This document shows, one piece after another, positions 22,384 to 22,527 of a stretch of 34,219 nucleotides of DNA. The notes below the pieces were generated by a model. The model ran no database searches and was not told the origin of the DNA. It saw only the letters and a list, made by a program, of their open reading frames with translations. This DNA is from Lachnospiraceae bacterium (GTDB taxonomy: Bacteria; Bacillota; Clostridia; Lachnospirales; Lachnospiraceae): NCBI GenBank assembly GCA_029007885.1, contig JAQXIR010000142.1, forward strand, positions 1 through 34,219. Direction: 5' to 3'. The position numbers and the translations under genes are program-made. Every line of letters begins with the position of its first letter. Positions within the stretch are counted from its first letter, which is position 1.

Positions 22384-22429
22384 GACTTCATTTCCTCCTT
22401 AATAGTTTATTATTTTTGTGATGATTTCC

Positions 22430-22489
22430 AAAAAAGGTGCTTAACCCAAAAAAGCACGGCAGTATATTCCCGCCATGCTAGACACCTTT
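22430..22489 (-). promoter_or_regulatory. candidate attenuator: two overlapping terminator-like hairpins in the gdhA leader
   Basis: Minus strand: hairpin A AGCATGGCGG-gaatata-CTGCCGTGCT then TTTTTT; hairpin B GTGCTT-ttttgggtt-AAGCAC then CTTTTTT. The GTGCT segment is shared, so A and B exclude each other. Confidence 0.5.
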
Positions 22490-22498
22490 GTCTTTTGT

Positions 22499-22527
22499 AT
22501 TATATAATGACTTTTTTTATTATGCAA
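22499..22527 (-). promoter_or_regulatory. candidate sigma-A promoter upstream of the gdhA leader
   Basis: Minus strand TTGCAT (plus 22522-22527), 17-nt spacer, TATAAT (plus 22499-22504). Confidence 0.6.

Follow-up and report, generated by a model that had tools for sequence, protein, structure and literature searches.

We report that the leader of gdhA, the glutamate dehydrogenase gene, in a contig of a gut Lachnospiraceae bacterium (GenBank assembly GCA_029007885.1, contig JAQXIR010000142.1, positions 1 to 34,219; the whole stretch of 34,219 nucleotides is called the window below) is likely to be an attenuator in which ANTAR antitermination of a nitrogen-assimilation regulon acts through a single, 5'-terminal hexaloop hairpin. 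At the level of sequence the case is made by the architecture of the leader, by covariation of both of its alternative structures, by the genes that the element precedes and by co-occurrence with an ANTAR gene. A cis-acting attenuator of gdhA had already been proposed in an original prediction made from the window, and this proposal is strengthened here by loop/terminator covariation and by recurrence of the element in relatives; the hexaloop hairpin itself had gone unnoticed.

Between 22527 and 22381, read on the minus strand, the leader holds a promoter (TTGCAT-17 nt-TATAAT), a hairpin A with its T run, a weak hairpin B, and a pairing of AAAGGTG with CACCTTT that encloses hairpin A (Table 1). 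The first bases of the predicted transcript fold as AGAC[AAAGGU]GUCU, and this hairpin (22493-22480) conforms to the hairpin of published ANTAR targets (a stem of at least 3 bp and a 6-nt loop whose positions 1 and 4 are A and G; PMC3369931, PMC8164766). Because the outer terminator stem takes its 5' arm from the loop and 3' arm of this hairpin, the hexaloop hairpin and the outer stem are mutually exclusive, and the overlap of a terminator 5' arm with a hexaloop hairpin is seen both in the folds and in the covariation of loop and 3' arm. The 7-bp outer pairing had been predicted; the match is exact, it is backed by covariation in relatives, and it is part of the minimum-energy fold of the predicted transcript, which consists mainly of the outer stem and hairpin A (-26.5 kcal/mol, z = -2.21 versus dinucleotide shuffles; the terminator of outer stem plus hairpin A alone is -24.5 kcal/mol). 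Hairpin A, which begins at the base immediately after the hexaloop hairpin, was also picked up independently as terminator-like. The hairpin and its two G-U pairs are as originally described, while the six free T are not: the T run spans 22453-22448, and with the first T paired, five remain unpaired (22452-22448).

Covariation analysis in relatives had been suggested as a check, and when run it gave covariation for the hexaloop stem and for the loop/terminator pairing alike. We searched 397 Lachnospiraceae genomes (family) and 243 Clostridia genomes (class), and read 110 gdhA leaders from relatives, many of which carry the string RGACAAAGGYGTCY just downstream of the -10 box. In the family, the pattern TATAATN{2,14}GACAAAGRYGTC gave about 41 distinct sites, versus about 7 with the reversed pattern. 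A second family search fixed TATAAT, the loop AAAGGC and GCCTTTTT while leaving the stem free, and among its 91 matches were 33 with a C-G closing pair, in which stem pairs 2, 3 and 4 were formed at 33, 31 and 25 sites respectively; the stems recovered included GAC/GUC, GAAC/GUUC, AAAC/GUUU, UAC/GUA, AGC/GCU and GGC/GUC. Across 36 distinct hairpins the stem covariation score was 0.374; shuffling gave 0.151 and never reached the observed score in 500 trials, and sliding the partners gave no more than 0.106, although these rows were selected for the C-G closing pair, which is therefore uninformative, and 12 of them also for a paired stem, making the 33-site pairing count the cleaner test. The loop strand also pairs into the terminator in 36 sites of the first search set, a set unselected for terminators, where loop position 5 forms G-C in 28, G-U in 2 and A-U in 6 with the terminator 3' arm, and position 6 forms C-G in 32 and U-A in 3.

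Together the two family searches gave 68 hexaloop sites, and at 48 of them a nitrogen gene comes next (gdhA 19, amtB 7, P-II (glnK) 7, gltB 5, glnA 4, GSIII 3, and asnA, carA and pyrG 1 each), and about 7 of the 68 look like chance, lying within a gene or having no terminator. In the class genomes, 15 sites passed a gene-blind filter that asked for a stem of at least three pairs and a terminator using the loop strand; these precede gdhA (3), amtB, nifH, nadE and purA and, by sequence likeness, also GSIII, glmS and a glutamine amidotransferase-like gene, the short fragments tested of the last two giving no match in Pfam. In Lachnospiraceae, and elsewhere in Clostridia, the promoter-hexaloop-terminator unit appears to govern a regulon for nitrogen assimilation. 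The element also stands upstream of a circularly permuted ATP-grasp gene in two separate genomes (L137, CP_ATPgrasp_1/2; L234, similar by eye), hinting at a nitrogen role for this family.

The position of the element at the transcript start rests on a promoter that we found on the minus strand as predicted, and whose -35 element is supported by a comparison of 61 motif sites: with a spacing of 16-18 nt the best -35 matches at a mean of 4.41 of 6 bases versus 2.59 at shifted positions, and TTG is present at 51 of the 61, a signal for which the searches did not select. Over the same sites the distance from the predicted +1 to the hexaloop stem ranges between -2 and 8 nt, the upper end being fixed by the search pattern. 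The -10 box was likewise fixed in the search patterns, so that sites with weaker boxes were missed and the occurrence of the element in roughly 10-20% of genomes or gdhA leaders is a lower bound.

The candidate reader of the hairpin is an ANTAR protein. Recognition by this family depends on A1 and G4 of the hexaloop, and the closing AC/GU pairs also matter (PMC3369931); in EutV, Tyr164 forms a stack with loop G4, and binding requires Met172 (PMC8934654). The A1/G4 hexaloops and AC/GU closing pairs of our leaders fit these rules (PMC3369931, PMC8934654). The host genome encodes one ANTAR gene (PF03861, E 2e-16), directly downstream of glnA, and at 29 of 30 other loci the ANTAR gene likewise has glnA within 1.5 kb. 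At the positions of EutV R142, K143, K147, Y164 and M172 the host protein has K, K, D, H and M; among 11 proteins Met172 is invariant, and the Tyr164 position holds His in 10 and Tyr in one. All 13 element-bearing class genomes carry an ANTAR gene, compared with 131 of 243 overall (hypergeometric p = 2.4e-4, a value to be read with the caveat that genomes are not fully independent and that extra loci were chosen by eye before the ANTAR result was known).

Could the hexaloop be read by something else, either another RNA-binding protein or a small metabolite reporting glutamine or ammonia status, the hairpin then being a minimal riboswitch? We regard this as unlikely, though it is the strongest competitor. 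ANTAR targets are defined by two hexaloops, of which these leaders have just one, and the loop is nearly invariant as AAAGGC, as any specific ligand would demand. However, where the loop does vary it does so at positions 2, 3, 5 and 6 (AAGGGA, AATGGC, AACGGC, AAAGAA) with A1 and G4 constant, as in ANTAR loops; the universal presence of an ANTAR gene in the element-bearing class genomes also speaks against a different reader, and a 14-nt hairpin would be very small for an aptamer. An Rfam scan at gathering and permissive cut-offs returned a tRNA-Arg as the sole match in the window and only sub-threshold, unrelated families in the leader, in agreement with the earlier statement that it was not recognised as a known glutamine riboswitch class. 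Glutamine riboswitches (the glnA and Downstream-peptide RNAs of Rfam) likewise control nitrogen-assimilation genes, but unlike them the gdhA leader has no Rfam match at gathering cut-offs.

With an ANTAR protein as the reader, we envision the following mechanism. RNA polymerase would start at or just before the hairpin GAC[AAAGGU]GUC, and by default the loop strand would pair with the downstream CACCUUU, closing an intrinsic terminator around hairpin A. The glnA-linked ANTAR protein would bind and hold the emerging hexaloop, blocking the outer stem and allowing read-through into gdhA, with induction expected when nitrogen is short; ANTAR binding, antitermination and this nitrogen response are what we infer from the arrangement. 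The receiver of the glnA-linked proteins has no phospho-acceptor Asp, so that the signal is probably something other than phosphorylation. Our guess would be control by glutamine synthetase, the product of the neighbouring gene. In L160, 1527-2075 encodes a glnA-linked ANTAR protein with a receiver-like domain that has no phospho-Asp.

The published definition of an ANTAR target is two hexaloops joined by a short linker (PMC3369931, PMC8164766). Our leaders resemble the dual-hexaloop targets of Enterococcus eut/EutV, Klebsiella nasF/NasR and Pseudomonas amiE/AmiR in their A1/G4 hexaloop and AC/GU closing pairs, in the overlap of a hexaloop with the terminator 5' arm, in preceding nitrogen-metabolism genes and in the presence of an ANTAR gene in the genome. 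They differ in having a single hexaloop, at the RNA 5' end, with no recruitment hairpin, and in that the ANTAR protein here is glnA-linked with a receiver lacking the phospho-Asp. A second A1/G4 hexaloop occurs downstream in 7 of 61 leaders versus 5.8 expected in shuffles, with none in the gdhA leader, hairpin A included, and an upstream one would not fit, since no more than 8 nt separate the predicted +1 from the stem. The structure of EutV with RNA showed the dimer engaging one hexaloop at a time, and the minimal binding motif was redefined as a single hexaloop (PMC8934654). The leaders share with this minimal motif the idea that one hexaloop is enough for binding of an ANTAR dimer, and differ from that proposal in that single hexaloops here sit on terminators in many leaders; they would be a variant of ANTAR targets, natural single-hexaloop antiterminators. 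LicT/SacY antiterminators offer a similar logic, one protein-stabilized hairpin overlapping a terminator, but their RNA element is a 29-30 nt RAT and the protein family is different. Looking in the open-access literature for ANTAR in Lachnospiraceae and for leaders with one hexaloop, we came across no account of this class.

Several observations weigh against ANTAR antitermination as described. In eut/EutV both hexaloops are needed for antitermination (PMC8934654, PMC3369931), EutV Lys147 is not kept in Lachnospiraceae ANTAR proteins, and the receiver has no phospho-acceptor Asp in any of six full-length proteins. The ANTAR gene is near-universal in the family (75 of 79 genomes searched, mostly single-copy), and because nearly all family genomes carry it, co-occurrence is informative at the class level only. 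The element is present in only about one fifth of the 110 gdhA leaders, and we found no second copy in the host genome, relaxed patterns giving chance matches only; its glnA leader is without the element. The energetics of the gdhA leader also complicate matters, as hairpin A and the hexaloop hairpin can form side by side (hexaloop plus A -20.1 kcal/mol versus -24.5 for the terminator) and, carrying its own short U run, survives hexaloop formation here. Forcing the hexaloop hairpin costs 5-17 kcal/mol in most leaders and just 2-4 kcal/mol in the window's gdhA leader and a few more of its kind, in which the inner hairpin survives. Since hairpin A persists alongside the hexaloop hairpin, read-through is possibly partial here; antitermination in this leader may be incomplete, or may require steric blocking of hairpin A by the bound protein.

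The fuller proposition goes further, and we hold it only somewhat above even: that a single 5'-terminal hexaloop with no recruitment hairpin suffices for ANTAR antitermination across Clostridia, and joins gdhA, amtB, glnK, gltB, glnA, asnA, nifH and further genes in a single nitrogen regulon at the RNA level, under a glnA-linked, non-phosphorylated ANTAR protein, possibly controlled by glutamine synthetase itself.

Two other accounts fare worse than a non-ANTAR reader. Hairpin A could simply serve the upstream 145-aa gene as its intrinsic terminator, an alternative raised in the original prediction, and gdhA could be constitutive: that ORF ends at 22535, and judged by pattern hairpin A and its T run make a good terminator. 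We consider this very improbable, as the promoter is located between the ORF and hairpin A, and the promoter-hexaloop-terminator unit recurs with loop/terminator covariation before unrelated nitrogen genes in varied neighbourhoods. An attenuator in which hairpins A and B alternate, the switch originally envisaged, can be set aside almost entirely: both can be drawn, sharing GTGCT as was pointed out, but B is weaker than A by 11 kcal/mol, is missing from all 109 other gdhA leaders, and both states would terminate, the actual competitor of the terminator being the 5' hexaloop hairpin. At -6.3 versus -17.1 kcal/mol hairpin B cannot compete with A; it is probably incidental, and as an antiterminator it was ruled out as weak and unconserved.

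A leader peptide was also considered and rejected. The frame in question (ATG GCG GGA ATA TAC TGC CGT GCT TTT TTG GGT TAA) follows AAAGGTG, and by eye the relatives have no conserved peptide or even start codon. In the window this possible 11-codon frame, MAGIYCRAFLG-stop, runs from 22441 to 22476 on the minus strand, starts a few bases past AAAGGTG and has no conserved counterpart in relatives.

Table 1. Positions of the gdhA leader elements and of gdhA in the window
Feature	Positions	Strand	Basis
gdhA promoter, -35 element TTGCAT	22522..22527	-	sequence
gdhA promoter, -10 element TATAAT, 17 nt after the -35	22499..22504	-	sequence; predicted +1 ~22492/22493
Hexaloop hairpin AGAC-AAAGGT-GTCT, ANTAR-type loop (A1, G4), putative antiterminator	22480..22493	-	sequence, compensatory stem changes
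Outer terminator stem, 5' arm AAAGGTG; overlaps hexaloop loop and 3' arm	22483..22489	-	sequence, fold
Hairpin A, inner part of the terminator, 10 pairs (2 G-U), 7-nt loop	22453..22479	-	sequence; -17.1 kcal/mol alone
Hairpin B, GTGCTT/AAGCAC, then C and six T; probably incidental	22437..22457	-	-6.3 kcal/mol
Outer terminator stem, 3' arm CACCTTT (22439-22433) and T run (22435-22430)	22430..22439	-	sequence, fold, covariation
gdhA ribosome-binding site AAGGAGG	22394..22400	-	sequence
gdhA, glutamate dehydrogenase, 444 aa	21049..22383	-	Pfam PF00208, PF02812

Some leaders depart from the common layout. The Acetatifactor-type gdhA leaders L031, L032 and L119 keep the hexaloop and an AGGUG/CACCU pairing with no T run after it, and may use a different control mode. 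Apparent tandem copies were seen in L141, where a second hairpin AGAC-AATGTA-GTCT lies about 240 nt downstream, near gdhA, and in L221, with a second AAGC-AAAGGC-GCTT deeper in the amtB leader. The 145-aa ORF upstream of gdhA in the window (22535-22972, minus strand) has no match in Pfam, and by eye some relatives, L122 and L144 among them, seem to have ORFs resembling it in front of gdhA.

ANTAR proteins pose the question of how two hexaloops are used, given that the dimer engages one at a time and eut needs both. A large natural class with a single hexaloop at the transcript start would make this question directly testable, and the single-hexaloop architecture explains why search models built on dual hairpins would miss such targets. 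For the gut bacteria in which these leaders are found, and which are abundant there, the work offers a candidate mechanism for the control of ammonia assimilation through a near-universal and apparently unstudied ANTAR gene adjacent to glnA.
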